Positions 29,620 through 38,025 of a stretch of DNA of 63,909 bases are shown here, piece after piece. The notes below the pieces were generated by a model. That model did not search any database. It had not been told where the DNA came from and was given only the letters and a program-made list of their open reading frames with translations. Source of the DNA: Pseudobutyrivibrio xylanivorans DSM 14809. GTDB lineage: Bacteria > Bacillota > Clostridia > Lachnospirales > Lachnospiraceae. Each line of letters opens with the position of its first letter. Position 1 is the first letter of the stretch. Made by a program: the position numbers and the translations under genes. Where the stretch lies: assembly GCF_900141825.1 (NCBI RefSeq), contig NZ_FQYQ01000018.1, positions 1 to 63,909 on the forward strand, read 5' to 3'.

Positions 29620-29701
29620 GGTTAGAATAAACTTACTACCTTTTTTATAGAAACTATGTTAAATTATAGCTGTTAAAAATGATTATATGGAGGACAAAAA
29701 T

Positions 29702-29968
29702 ATGTTACCAGAGCAGTCAATTGAATTTAGATATGATACTCAGCTTCTTATTGAGGGAGAGGACCTTGATGAGGATGCAATCAACGATTACATCACAGAG
29801 AACTTCAAGGGAGATTGTCTTCTTGCAGTAGGTGATGAGGAGCTTATTAAGATTCACTATCATACAAACGAGCCATGGAAGGTATTAGAGTATTGCCGTA
29901 GTCTTGGCGAAATTTACGATATCGTAGTAGAAGATATGGATAGACAGGCAAGAGGATTACAGGGTTAG
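29702..29968 (+). CDS. Small stand-alone protein resembling the C-terminal domain of FakA/YloV
   Basis: An 88-residue acidic protein. The blocks YDTQLLIEGED, DCLLAVGDEELIKIHYHTNEPWKVLEYCRSLGEI and VVEDMDRQARG resemble the C-terminal part of the fatty-acid kinase FakA/YloV (V-H-V-H-T-x-x-P-G-x-V-L-x-Y, then I-E-N-M-x-x-Q). The kinase DhaL domain is absent. The ATG at 29702 has GGAGG eight bases upstream; an ATG at 29687 would lie on that RBS. Function unknown; it may be a partner or regulator in fatty-acid binding. Confidence 0.75.
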   Translation: MLPEQSIEFRYDTQLLIEGEDLDEDAINDYITENFKGDCLLAVGDEELIKIHYHTNEPWKVLEYCRSLGEIYDIVVEDMDRQARGLQG

Positions 29969-31572: not shown

Positions 31573-32259
31573 TTGAATTTAGCAGAAGAGCTTATTGAAG
31601 AGCTAAATTGTGAAGCCGTTTTTACCCTCCACATAGGTAGTTATGAAATTCCGGTTATGGAGTCAGTTGTAGTTACCTGGATTGTAATGGGCATTCTTAT
31701 TCCGTTAGCTATATTCTTAACGACGGGATTAAAGACACAAAATATCAGCAAGAAGCAGGCTTTCGCTGAGTTTATCTACGAAAAGCTGCACAGTATCGTA
31801 GGCGGAATGCTAGGCGAGGAAGCTAAGCAGTACACGGTCTACCTTTCAACAGTCCTTTTGTATATTGGTTTATCAAATATAATCGGATTGATTGGATTTA
31901 AGTCACCAACTAAGGACTTGAATGTTACATTAGCATTAGCACTTATGAGTATCATTCTTGTAGAAGGCGCAGGTATTTACCAGCACGGGGTTAGAAAGTG
32001 GCTCCACAACTTTACAGAGCCAGTTGCCATCGTAACTCCATTCAACATTTTGGATGTATTCACAAGGCCATTGTCATTGTGCATGCGACTTTTTGGAAAT
32101 GTACTTGGCGCATTCGTAATCATGGAATTACTTAAGATTGTATGTCCACCAGTTATTCCAGCAATCTTCTCCGTATACTTCGATTTATTCGACGGATTAT
32201 TGCAGGCATACGTCTTCGTATTTTTAACATCGTTATATATTAAAGAGGCAGTAGAATAA
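31573..32259 (+). CDS. atpB: F1Fo ATP synthase subunit a
   Basis: A 228-residue membrane stator subunit forming the ion half-channels. The essential arginine lies in LCMRLFGNVLGAFVI, on the helix facing the c-ring. LQAYVFVFLTSLYIKEA ends the protein. It begins at TTG with a very strong AAGGAGGTG upstream. No atpI precedes it. It is first in the order atpB, atpE, atpF, atpH-A fusion, atpG, atpD, atpC. Confidence 0.95.
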   Translation: MNLAEELIEELNCEAVFTLHIGSYEIPVMESVVVTWIVMGILIPLAIFLTTGLKTQNISKKQAFAEFIYEKLHSIVGGMLGEEAKQYTVYLSTVLLYIGLSNIIGLIGFKSPTKDLNVTLALALMSIILVEGAGIYQHGVRKWLHNFTEPVAIVTPFNILDVFTRPLSLCMRLFGNVLGAFVIMELLKIVCPPVIPAIFSVYFDLFDGLLQAYVFVFLTSLYIKEAVE

Positions 32260-32267
32260 ACTTCTAG

Positions 32268-32504
<237 letters not shown>

Positions 32505-32634: not shown

Positions 32635-33117
32635 ATGATTAACGTTTCATTTTGGAATATACTCTGGACTGTTGTGAATCTTCTGATTCTTTGTCTTGCA
32701 TTTAAGAAGTTCTTCTTCAAGCCAATCGATAACATCATCGAGAAGCGTCAGGAAGAAGCTAAAGAAATCTACGACAAGGCTGAGGAGACAAACCGACAGG
32801 CTGAGGAGTACGCAAAGCAATATGAGGATAAGCTTGCCAACGTTGAGTCTGAGAAGAAGCAGATTATTCTTGAAGCAAGAAAGAACGCAGATAATCATTA
32901 TCAGAAGATTATTGCAGAGGCTCAGGAAGATGCCAAGACTATCCAGGAGAACGCTATTGCTGAGGCTACAATCGAGAAGAACAAGATTATTTCCAGTGCA
33001 AAGAAGGAAATTGCTGATATGGTTGTAGAAGCTACAGCAAAGGTTATCGGAGGAAGAACAGGGGCTGATATTGACAGCCAGTTGTTTGATGATTTTATTG
33101 ATAAAGCAGGTGAATAA
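32635..33117 (+). CDS. atpF: F1Fo ATP synthase subunit b
   Basis: A 160-residue peripheral stalk subunit. It has one N-terminal membrane helix (ILWTVVNLLILCLAFKKF), then a long charged helix suited to a right-handed coiled coil dimer (residues about 30-150). FFFKPIDNIIEKRQEE after the membrane helix is typical. RBS GAGGA. The stop is followed by the delta-alpha fusion after two bases. Confidence 0.95.
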   Translation: MINVSFWNILWTVVNLLILCLAFKKFFFKPIDNIIEKRQEEAKEIYDKAEETNRQAEEYAKQYEDKLANVESEKKQIILEARKNADNHYQKIIAEAQEDAKTIQENAIAEATIEKNKIISSAKKEIADMVVEATAKVIGGRTGADIDSQLFDDFIDKAGE

Positions 33118-33119
33118 CA

Positions 33120-35129
33120 GTGACAGATAAGTCTTTTAATTACATTAGTGATTTACATAGTATCAAAAATGCGGGATCTCATCTGCAGAACGCTGCATCT
33201 ATCATCGATATGATACCAGCAATTGGTGAGGAGCTCGCGGATCCTACTGTGCCTGACACTAAAAAGCACATGGTAGTTGACAAAATCTTCCCACGTGAAA
33301 TTCGTGAATTTTTAAAGCTACTTTGTGATAATGGTGATTTTGACTCATTTGGTGAAATCGTTGCTGACTACAAGGCTTTCCTTGAAAATCAGGGAGAGAA
33401 CATTGAGTATGCAACACTTAGATATGTTACAGCACCTACAGATGAGCAGCTTGCAGGAATTAGAAAGTTCCTTGCAAAGGAATATGGCAGTGAGGATATC
33501 CTTATTAAGAAGGAAGAAGATCCTTCACTTAAGAGCGGCTTCGTTCTTACAGTTGGCTCAAGGGAGTACGACTGGAGTGAGCAGAGCCGTATTGAGCAGC
33601 TTTCTCAGAGAATTAATGAGGCTGTTCAGAAGAGTACAGTAGATGAAAATATCCTTTCTATCTTAAGATCTAGTATTGATGATTTCGAGGTTAAGGATAA
33701 GGAAGTCGGAATCGTAAAGTGGGTTGGTGACGGTATTGTTAACGTTAATGGTATCGACCACGCATTTTATGGTGAGATTGTTATCTTTGATTGTGGTGTC
33801 AAAGGAATGGTTCAGGACATCCGCCGCGATGAAATTGGTATCATCCTTTTTGATCGCGATGTAGATATAAAGGAAGGTTCGAAGGTAGTACGTACTGGCA
33901 AGATGGCTGGTATTCCTGTTGGCGAAGGCTTCCTTGGCAGAATCGTAGATGCACTTGGTACTCCTATCGATGGAAAGGGTGAGATTGATGCTGATGGATT
34001 CAGACCAGTAGAGTGCCCAGCACCAAGTATCGTAGATAGAAAATCAGTTAGCCAACCAATGGAGACAGGTCTTCTTTCAATCGATTCAATGTTCCCAATC
34101 GGTCGTGGTCAGCGTGAGCTTATCATCGGCGATAGACAGACAGGTAAGACATCAATTGCTACAGATACAATTATCAACCAGAAGGGCAAGGATGTTGTCT
34201 GCGTTTACGTTGCAATCGGACAGAAGGCATCTACAATTGCAAAGCTTGTTAATACATTAAAGGAGCACGGTGCTATGGATTACACTATCATCGTTAGTGC
34301 CACAGCAGCAGATCCAGCTCCACTTCAGTATATTGCACCATATGCAGGTACAGCTCTTGCAGAATATTTCATGTATTCAGGCAAGGACGTACTTATTGTA
34401 TATGATGATTTATCAAAGCACGCAGTTGCATACCGTGCTATTTCACTTTTGCTTGAGCGTTCTCCAGGACGTGAGGCATATCCAGGTGATGTATTCTACT
34501 TACACTCAAGATTATTAGAGCGTTCAGCAAGAATCATCCCAGAGGCAGGAGGCGGTTCTATCACAGCCCTTCCTATTATTGAGACACAGGCAGGTGATTT
34601 GTCAGCATATATCCCTACCAACGTAATCTCAATTACTGATGGTCAGATTTTCCTTGAGTCACAGCTGTTTAATGCAGGCCAGAGACCAGCGGTTAACGTA
34701 GGTCTTTCTGTATCCCGTGTTGGTGGTGCAGCTCAGACTAAGGCTATGAAGAAGGCCGCAGGTTCAATTCGTATCGACTTAGCTCAGTACCGTGAAATGG
34801 AAGTCTTCACACAGTTCTCATCAGATCTTGATGATGCGACAAAGAGACAGCTTGCTCACGGACGTGCTCTTATGGAGCTCTTAAAGCAGCCACTTAACAG
34901 ACCTTTCTCAATGGCAGAACAGGTTATTATTCTTGTGGCAGCAAATGCACATATTTTTAGTGATTTAGATGTTACAGCAATTAAGAAGTTCAGATTAGAT
35001 ATGCTTGCATTCTTCCACGAGGAGCACAGCGATATTATCAATCAGCTTAATCAGACTAAGAATATGACAGATGAGTTAAAGGAAAGTATCATCGAGGCAG
35101 CTACTGAGTTTAAAAACAATCAGGAGTAA
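33120..35129 (+). CDS. F1Fo ATP synthase delta-alpha fusion protein
   Basis: One uninterrupted ORF of 669 residues. Residues 1 to about 170 are a delta/OSCP subunit: a helical N-terminal domain, then ATLRYVTAPTDEQLAGIR and DPSLKSGFVLTVGSREYD as in delta C-terminal domains. From about residue 174 a complete alpha subunit follows (ILRSSIDDFEVKDKEVG, WVGDGI, Walker A GDRQTGKT at 337-344, LSVSRVGGAAQTKAMK). Alpha has its full length of about 496 residues. I see no in-frame internal start with an RBS at the junction. Separate atpH and atpA genes are absent. It starts at GTG two bases after atpF. Confidence 0.95.
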   Translation: MTDKSFNYISDLHSIKNAGSHLQNAASIIDMIPAIGEELADPTVPDTKKHMVVDKIFPREIREFLKLLCDNGDFDSFGEIVADYKAFLENQGENIEYATLRYVTAPTDEQLAGIRKFLAKEYGSEDILIKKEEDPSLKSGFVLTVGSREYDWSEQSRIEQLSQRINEAVQKSTVDENILSILRSSIDDFEVKDKEVGIVKWVGDGIVNVNGIDHAFYGEIVIFDCGVKGMVQDIRRDEIGIILFDRDVDIKEGSKVVRTGKMAGIPVGEGFLGRIVDALGTPIDGKGEIDADGFRPVECPAPSIVDRKSVSQPMETGLLSIDSMFPIGRGQRELIIGDRQTGKTSIATDTIINQKGKDVVCVYVAIGQKASTIAKLVNTLKEHGAMDYTIIVSATAADPAPLQYIAPYAGTALAEYFMYSGKDVLIVYDDLSKHAVAYRAISLLLERSPGREAYPGDVFYLHSRLLERSARIIPEAGGGSITALPIIETQAGDLSAYIPTNVISITDGQIFLESQLFNAGQRPAVNVGLSVSRVGGAAQTKAMKKAAGSIRIDLAQYREMEVFTQFSSDLDDATKRQLAHGRALMELLKQPLNRPFSMAEQVIILVAANAHIFSDLDVTAIKKFRLDMLAFFHEEHSDIINQLNQTKNMTDELKESIIEAATEFKNNQE

Positions 35130-35132
35130 GCT

Positions 35133-36143
35133 ATGGCAAGTACAAAAGAAATCCAGAATAGAATAAATAGTATTCAGGATACGATGAAGATTACCAATGC
35201 CATGTACATGATGTCCTCAATGAAGCTTAGAAAGGCAAAGCAGAAGCTTGCCGATACAGAGCCTTTCTTCGATGCAGTTCAGCGAGAGCTTGCAGAGAAC
35301 CTTGTTCATTTCCCAGATATCAGACATATATATTTTGATAATCGTGTGGAGGATGAGCAGGAGTGTTTAAAACACAGAGGCTTTATTGTTTTCACTGGTG
35401 ATAAGGGCATGGCTGGTGCTTATAACCATAACGCCATTAAGATGGCCCTTGATCGAATTTCTGATTTGCAAAAGGATGAGTACACATTGTTTGTTGTTGG
35501 TGAGGTGGGACGAAATTTCTTCCTTAACGGCGGCTACAATGTGGATGAGAATTTTAGATTTTCTTCAAATAATCCATCCATGCACAGAGCCAGAGTTATC
35601 TCAGAGTACATGATTGAAAAGTATAACAATGGCGAGCTGGACAGAATTGATGTTGTCTACACTAAGATGCTTAATTCTGTAACAGAGGAAACCTGTGTAG
35701 AACGTCTTCTTCCTCTTAGAACACAGAAGTTCATTAAGGAAAAGGCTAAAGAGATTGAGGAGGATATTGAGGGAACAGGTAAGGCAGCTCAGGAAATGAA
35801 ATCCGGAGTTAAGCATGTTCACTCAATTAACAGTTACGAGTACGAGGCTGTAACAAAGGGTGGCGATAAATGGATGCCATTCTTCCCATCACTTAAAGCT
35901 GTTTTGGAACAGCTGGTTCACAACAATTTTACAGGCTTCATTTATGGTGCCCTTGTAGAATGTTCAGCCAGTGAGGAAAATGCCAGAATGATGGCGATGC
36001 AGTCCGCTACAGATAATGCAGAGGCAATTCTTCGTGAATTATCTATTGAATACAACAGAGTGCGTCAGGCTGCTATTACCCAGGAAATTACTGAGGTAAT
36101 TAGCGGTGCTAAGGCACTCAAAAAGAAGAAAGCAAAAAAGTAA
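35133..36143 (+). CDS. atpG: F1Fo ATP synthase subunit gamma
   Basis: The central rotor subunit, 336 residues. The N-terminal helix (STKEIQNRINSIQDTMKITNAMYMMSSMKL) and the C-terminal helix (ARMMAMQSATDNAEAILRELSIEYNRVRQAAITQEITEV, residues about 285-325) that form the coiled coil are conserved. It is about 50 residues longer than the usual 285, mainly through a charged stretch (KFIKEKAKEIEEDIEGTGKA) and a lysine-rich C terminus. It follows the fusion gene by three bases. Confidence 0.95.
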   Translation: MASTKEIQNRINSIQDTMKITNAMYMMSSMKLRKAKQKLADTEPFFDAVQRELAENLVHFPDIRHIYFDNRVEDEQECLKHRGFIVFTGDKGMAGAYNHNAIKMALDRISDLQKDEYTLFVVGEVGRNFFLNGGYNVDENFRFSSNNPSMHRARVISEYMIEKYNNGELDRIDVVYTKMLNSVTEETCVERLLPLRTQKFIKEKAKEIEEDIEGTGKAAQEMKSGVKHVHSINSYEYEAVTKGGDKWMPFFPSLKAVLEQLVHNNFTGFIYGALVECSASEENARMMAMQSATDNAEAILRELSIEYNRVRQAAITQEITEVISGAKALKKKKAKK

Positions 36144-36153
36144 AGGTTTTTGA

Positions 36154-37596
<1,443 letters not shown>

Positions 37597-37599
37597 CCT

Positions 37600-38025
37600 A
37601 TGGCATCTTTATTTAATCTTAAAATAATTGCCTGCGATGGAATCTTCTACGACGGCCCATGTGAGATATTAGTATTTCCAGGCTCCGATGGTGAGTATGC
37701 TATTCTCAATCATCATGAGGTATTTACCGGCATTGTGGAGATTGGTAACATCCGCTTCACAACAGGTGATGGCGAGAAGAGAAATGCTATTATTTCCGAT
37801 GGACTAGTTACAGTTGAGCCTGATGGTTCAGTTGTAGTAGTAGCATATTCATGCGAGCGTCCAGAGGATATTGATACATTCCGTGCTCAGGAAGCTCTTG
37901 AGCGTGCTCAGGAACAGCTTCAGCAGAAGCAGAGCCGTATTGACTACCAGATTTCTGCAAATAATATGGCTCGTGCAATGGCGCGACTTAAAGGCGCTGG
38001 AGCGAATAATCTGTACAAAATATAA
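37600..38025 (+). CDS. atpC: F1Fo ATP synthase subunit epsilon
   Basis: A 141-residue regulatory and stalk subunit. The N-terminal beta sandwich (FNLKIIACDGIFYDGPCE, FPGSDGEYAILNHHEVF) is followed by the C-terminal helical hairpin (residues about 90-135) with an Arg-rich end that can inhibit hydrolysis in known enzymes. It begins three bases after the atpD stop. The operon terminator follows directly. Confidence 0.95.
   Translation: MASLFNLKIIACDGIFYDGPCEILVFPGSDGEYAILNHHEVFTGIVEIGNIRFTTGDGEKRNAIISDGLVTVEPDGSVVVVAYSCERPEDIDTFRAQEALERAQEQLQQKQSRIDYQISANNMARAMARLKGAGANNLYKI

Follow-up and report, generated by a model that had tools for sequence, protein, structure and literature searches.

F1 of the F-type ATP synthases holds three alpha subunits and one delta subunit, the latter linking the motor head to the stator, which raises the question of how an enzyme is assembled when both are encoded as a single chain. 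Such a gene is present in Pseudobutyrivibrio xylanivorans DSM 14809, a gut or rumen bacterium, within a 63,909-nucleotide stretch of its genome (contig NZ_FQYQ01000018.1), the whole of which is referred to here as the window. An earlier note on this DNA had proposed that the product is either cleaved, carries three delta domains into each F1, or is made together with alpha alone, and with a genuine fusion at hand the stoichiometry puzzle is indeed real. For F-type enzymes it is treated as a rule, with a bearing on the H+/ATP ratio, that each has a single stalk and a single a subunit.

A delta-alpha fusion in an F-type operon

The gene is one open frame with a GTG start and no internal stop. 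Residues 15-164 are recognized as OSCP (Pfam PF00213, 71.5 bits against a cut-off of 22.3) and are followed by the alpha domains ATP-synt_ab_N (195-260), ATP-synt_ab (317-532) and ATP-synt_ab_C (539-664), while the atpA model TIGR00962 covers residues 176-667 with 746.5 bits against a curated cut-off of 484.45. The spacer between the complete delta and the complete alpha is about 11 residues, and the single 669-residue frame with a full-length alpha that the earlier note described is confirmed.

The surrounding operon has the gene order a-c-b-(delta-alpha)-gamma-beta-epsilon, with all the F-type domains together, and it departs from the F-type norm of separate delta and alpha chains in that one frame encodes both (Table 1). 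The gap between the stop codon of b and the start of the fused gene is 2 bases. No other delta or alpha gene was found within the window operon by open reading frames and Pfam, so that the earlier statement that separate atpH and atpA are missing holds for this operon; elsewhere in the genome (3.42 Mb in 57 contigs), contig C37 carries a second, canonical F-type operon (L009, G000:C37:41000-52000) with a separate delta of 188 aa and a separate alpha of 504 aa, the latter 55% identical to the fused alpha. Na+-type c subunits are marked by a Gln plus Glu-Thr/Ser ligands. Judged by eye against this motif, the C37 c subunit shows the Gln and Glu-Thr pattern of the Na+ enzymes and the window c subunit is without the Gln, for which reason the fused operon is probably of the H+ type. 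Pseudobutyrivibrio ruminis is reported, in a 2020 paper, to possess two ATP synthases (H+ and Na+). Upstream of the operon, a 93-aa open reading frame at 29687-29968 is apparently a fragment of a larger protein, which we take to resemble a DegV/DAK-type C-terminus.

Table 1. Positions in the window of the ATP synthase genes and of the parts of the fused chain.
Feature	Position	Strand	Evidence and remarks
atpB, subunit a	31573..32259	+	PF00119, 143.4 bits; TTG start as listed
atpE, subunit c	32280..32504	+	PF00137, 71.2 bits
atpF, subunit b	32635..33117	+	160 aa; PF00430, 73.1 bits
delta-alpha fusion	33120..35129	+	669 aa; frame, Pfam, TIGR00962
delta N-terminal domain (NTD)	33120..33410	+	residues ~1-97; Pfam OSCP and relatives
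delta C-terminal domain (CTD), b-binding	33411..33611	+	residues ~98-164; retained in fused relatives
spacer	33612..33644	+	residues ~165-175; no in-frame ATG/GTG/TTG
alpha	33645..35129	+	residues 176-669; N-terminal helix, GDRQTGKT, SVSRVGG; TIGR00962
atpG, gamma	35133..36143	+	PF00231, 286.1 bits
atpD, beta	36199..37596	+	PF00006, 256.5 bits
atpC, epsilon	37600..38025	+	PF02823 and PF00401

Conservation and range of the fusion

The search of related genomes that the earlier note had suggested finds the same fusion in all seven listed genomes of the genus (G000, G114, G216, G230, G239, G248 and G255), with frames of 671-677 aa without a stop, and a fused alpha in at least 60 of 317 genomes of the family. 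A further 73 genomes without a match are outside the listing from which the seven come, and as this listing is ordered by kinship none of them is expected to belong to the genus. The nearest named loci, from Pseudobutyrivibrio (L010 and L025), are 82-83% identical over residues 1-669, each in a single frame. A sequencing or assembly error that conceals a stop between two ordinary genes would agree with the separate genes in the same order that occur in 18 of the best 80 of at least 593 related stretches, but with the same open frame in all seven listed genomes of the genus and in dozens of relatives such an error near residue 170, which the earlier note had named as a danger, is rejected for practical purposes and its probability is close to nil.

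Two samples describe the range of forms. Among relatives from named records, the best 80 of at least 593 stretches encoding a relative, classed by the distance to the Walker motif, comprise 27 full fusions, 34 fusions without the delta NTD and 18 pairs of separate adjacent genes, with one further locus (L050) cut by a contig end. In the family sample of 317 genomes, at least 90% complete, 71 match a profile of the delta CTD-alpha junction at E ≤ 1e-31; a stop inside the match was taken to mean separate genes and the fused cases were classed by open-frame length, which gives 60 fused, 8 separate and 3 with frames too short to class. The 60 fused genomes divide into 21 full (the window's own included), 38 NTD-less and 1 with b-delta CTD-alpha, and about two dozen were read directly, G384, G409, G431, G328, G158 and G357 among them; these counts are lower bounds, since divergent cases, G047 for one, fall short of the threshold. 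Fusions also occur beyond the family, in 13 genomes with 8 other family codes (class sample of 196 genomes) and in 4 genomes with 2 family codes (order sample of 148). Some of the forms are present in named strains of Pseudobutyrivibrio, Butyrivibrio and Oribacterium. The delta-alpha fusion is a real architecture that is conserved and occurs widely, and the relatives form a series from separate delta and alpha through the full delta-alpha of the window to a delta CTD-alpha without the NTD.

A split delta with its NTD encoded elsewhere was considered for the NTD-less loci and rejected. In ten NTD-less loci and in further NTD-less operons, b either runs into the beginning of CTD-alpha or comes to its stop some 20 bases or less from it, so that an NTD gene would not fit between the two; no intervening NTD gene is present in the NTD-less loci read, and none of the 11 NTD-less genomes that have only one enzyme set holds another OSCP over the cut-off.

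Several loci show further variation. In G044 (contig 33, L096:3156-5492) b, the delta CTD and alpha share one 778-aa frame, and no further F-type b, delta or alpha passes the cut-offs in that genome; if real, the frame would put b and alpha at 1:1, though this is a single genome, the one member of its genus in the set analysed, and a minor misassembly where b ends could produce such a frame. In G047 (contig 64, L094:2484-3443) a second b-like gene of 319 aa, of which Pfam names the b part only, adjoins both a b gene of the ordinary kind and a delta-alpha without the NTD, and its product carries two similar C-terminal repeats that by eye resemble the delta CTD. A deep NTD-less group (L054, L080, L085, L101-L105 and L108) has c reading frames of 119-138 aa with an N-terminal extension resembling a signal peptide, and its subunit a, where shown, is 270-294 aa. 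Finally, the alpha gene of L119 (G535) begins, if the first start codon is used, with a 21-residue unit repeated in tandem about three times ahead of the delta CTD.

The junction between delta and alpha

If an internal translation start yielded alpha alone beside the fusion, a start codon would be expected at the junction, yet no in-frame ATG, GTG or TTG was found in residues 150-195 of the window frame, nor at the junctions of L010 and L013. Among the other near kin, there are two GTG in L025 and three starts in L011, all without a Shine-Dalgarno-like stretch, which was sought 3-10 bases upstream of each start. In favour of such a start, 22 of the 28 full junctions (the window being one of the 28 but not of the 22) and 28 of the 34 NTD-less ones, 50 of 62 fused junctions overall, do hold an in-frame ATG, GTG or TTG, and 10 of these 50 have a Shine-Dalgarno-like stretch while 40 do not. 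The positions of these starts, however, vary among the fused junctions, and a start with a Shine-Dalgarno-like stretch is present at 3/28 full and 7/34 NTD-less junctions against all 18/18 separate genes, for which the scanned stretch was set somewhat differently. The scan thus lends little support to an internal start, which we consider very unlikely.

The spacing across the junction is rather uniform in most fusions. The delta YDxS motif lies 46 residues from the alpha barrel in the window, and the medians are 50 in the 28 full and 49 in the 34 NTD-less fusions, with interquartile ranges of 48.75-51 and 48-50.75, respectively, and a whole range of 45-67; in the PDB entry 9jc1, discussed below, the distance is 48. 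This evidence bears on proteolytic maturation, in which the spacer would be cut, F1 would take up three alpha and one delta, and the surplus delta would be degraded. Cleavage would bring back the usual 3:1 ratio of alpha to delta, the sequence is compatible with it, and a gene whose product is cut in the spacer would look no different. Against it stand the narrow junction length in most fusions and the sequences around the junctions, which on inspection by eye show no common motif for cleavage. Moreover, in the NTD-less relatives a freed CTD would have no NTD to anchor it on F1, and cleavage should therefore cut the stator. Overall, maturation by cleavage seems unlikely, if less so than an internal start.

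Genomes with the fused chain as the only alpha and delta

Nineteen genomes with fusions, 96-100% complete, were chosen, mostly for a single junction match. Exactly one OSCP and one atpA (TIGR00962) over the cut-offs, both on the fused chain, are present in 15 of the 19, a proportion that in view of the choice of genomes is not a frequency. Eleven of the 15 are NTD-less (G044 included) and four full, and one, G469, is a single contig. In these genomes the fused chains must therefore either serve all three alpha positions or get cut.

The remaining four genomes (G140, G384, G409 and G431) carry a second, canonical set, and the window genome itself encodes a separate alpha and delta, so that a mixed assembly is possible there, with the C37-operon alpha occupying two of the three alpha positions. 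The identity of this alpha to the fused one is, however, only 55%, and as no second F1 alpha over the cut-off is present in 15 of the 19 chosen genomes, an alpha from a second gene is not the general answer; we regard such mixing as highly improbable. Production together with alpha alone, one of the ways out named in the earlier note, is weakened both by these genomes and by the absence of an in-frame ATG, GTG or TTG from the window junction.

Evolution of the delta N-terminal domain

A FastTree tree was built from 121 alpha cores, 120 of them distinct, in a sampling that favoured fused genes. On this tree the fused or separate state requires a minimum of 4 changes and the presence of the NTD 11; support is weak for many of the inner branches (43 of 117 starred, 32 open), yet 6 changes in the NTD-less label follow from the starred branches by themselves, so that the NTD state has changed repeatedly. 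The separate-gene group is nested inside fused ones, and given this and the sampling either fusion or fission may have been the direction of change. For the NTD, with weak inner branches and the same bias, we infer the direction of the change and take it as loss, a domain being more easily lost than regained.

In the full fusions the slopes of NTD and CTD divergence are 3.83 and 2.70 (ratio 1.42, 36 proteins), compared with 4.61 and 3.72 (ratio 1.24, 18 proteins) in separate delta subunits. A relaxed NTD in the full fusions was considered on these grounds, but the difference goes that way only weakly and was not taken as support. As the NTD does not appear to be clearly decaying, it probably retains a function, and this speaks against an unrestrained three-stalk arrangement in the enzyme of the window itself.

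A proposed assembly of the fused enzyme

In ordinary enzymes a single delta NTD sits on the threefold axis in contact with two alpha N-termini, while the delta CTD contacts the third alpha and delta binds b2 (PMC12229609). For the window enzyme the best explanation, and in our judgement the likely one, is that the gene product is a single uncleaved chain that serves as alpha and delta alike in an F1Fo which is probably of the H+ type. Every F1 would then hold three delta copies, each CTD placed on its own alpha N-terminal helix via the short spacer. One NTD would probably lie in the alpha3beta3 crown, as in ordinary enzymes, and since the NTD is kept and only one fits the axis, mostly one stalk would be expected, with the two other CTDs being spare or occasional docking sites for b2. 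The NTD-less relatives, on the other hand, have the layout of an engineered multi-stalk enzyme, and two or even three stalks are quite conceivable in them. Of the three ways out in the earlier note, the one with three delta domains in each F1 has the most support: 34 of the best 80 of at least 593 related loci are without just the domain that limits the stalks, and the natural spacing is near that of the engineered fusion (PMC12229609). The three copies themselves are a prediction.

A more far-reaching proposal is that multi-stalk ATP synthases exist in nature, in Lachnospiraceae and in other Clostridia. Fusion of delta to alpha would have given each alpha its own b2 docking site and repeated loss of the delta NTD would have freed the threefold axis, so that enzymes with two or three stalks, and two or three a subunits, could make ATP at low proton-motive force; the full fusion of the window would be an intermediate that can switch between one stalk, with the NTD docked, and more. 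This we offer tentatively, as possible but rather doubtful.

Comparison with known systems

In the mycobacterial b-delta fusion, as in the window, delta is fused to a stator neighbour, although there it is carried on b and here on a subunit present in three copies. The N-ATPases resemble the window enzyme in being F-type enzymes without a separate delta, but they have no delta at all and a longer b (PMC5706428), whereas the window group retains delta or its CTD on alpha. A delta-alpha fusion is not described in the parts of PMC5706428 drawn on here, the words "fused" and "fusion" are absent from an account of 62 butyrivibrio genomes (PMC4478896), and no natural delta-alpha fusion beyond those named in PMC12229609 appears in the titles and abstract openings among the matches listed from the open-licence literature.

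The closest counterpart is an engineered one. The best PDB match to the window junction is 9jc1_I, a chain of 580 aa named "delta subunit, alpha" (E = 3e-14), in which the spacer aligns with that of the window without an indel and which again ranks first in a PDB search with a 21-row profile. By its name and fit it is taken to be the construct of Ueno et al. (2025), who fused residues 105-178 of Bacillus PS3 delta to alpha (PMC12229609). In the resulting deltaDeltaN-alpha FoF1 the b2 stalks and the a subunits number as many as three each, with two stalks on average and an H+/ATP ratio of 5.8, and the authors conclude that the delta NTD restricts the stalks to one (PMC12229609). They also name natural fusions without the NTD, in Acidaminococcus fermentans and under UniProt G4Q3K6 and A0A1I2C5T3 (PMC12229609, discussion). 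The earlier note had known of no well-described delta-alpha fusion, which no longer stands: the trimmed variant has already been engineered by others, with a solved structure, and its natural occurrence has been briefly noted (PMC12229609). The full-length form and a series or tree of forms were not found in the parts of PMC12229609 used here, and within the open-licence literature searched there seems to be no precedent for this form and its range, for the graded set of forms, or for genomes in which the fused chain is the sole alpha.

As in the PS3 construct, the delta C-terminus in the window is joined to the alpha N-terminus with near-identical spacing, and the short-spacer delta CTD-alpha joint of the multi-stalk design is thereby present. 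The two differ in that the window fusion is natural and known from its gene, whereas that of PS3 is engineered and solved as a structure, and in that the NTD absent from the design is present in the window; it is absent in 34 of the best 80 loci, and these relatives resemble the PS3 design, in which delta 105-178 was retained. The fusions of A. fermentans, G4Q3K6 and A0A1I2C5T3 are, like that of the window, delta-alpha gene fusions in an atp operon, but as described in PMC12229609 they are without the NTD. The one-stalk rule can thus be broken by engineering (PMC12229609), and the related anaerobes offer a wide range of natural cases, from separate genes through the window's full fusion to the trimmed form, some of them in named strains, which makes it directly testable whether nature breaks the rule as well and how assembly stoichiometry shifts through gene fusion.
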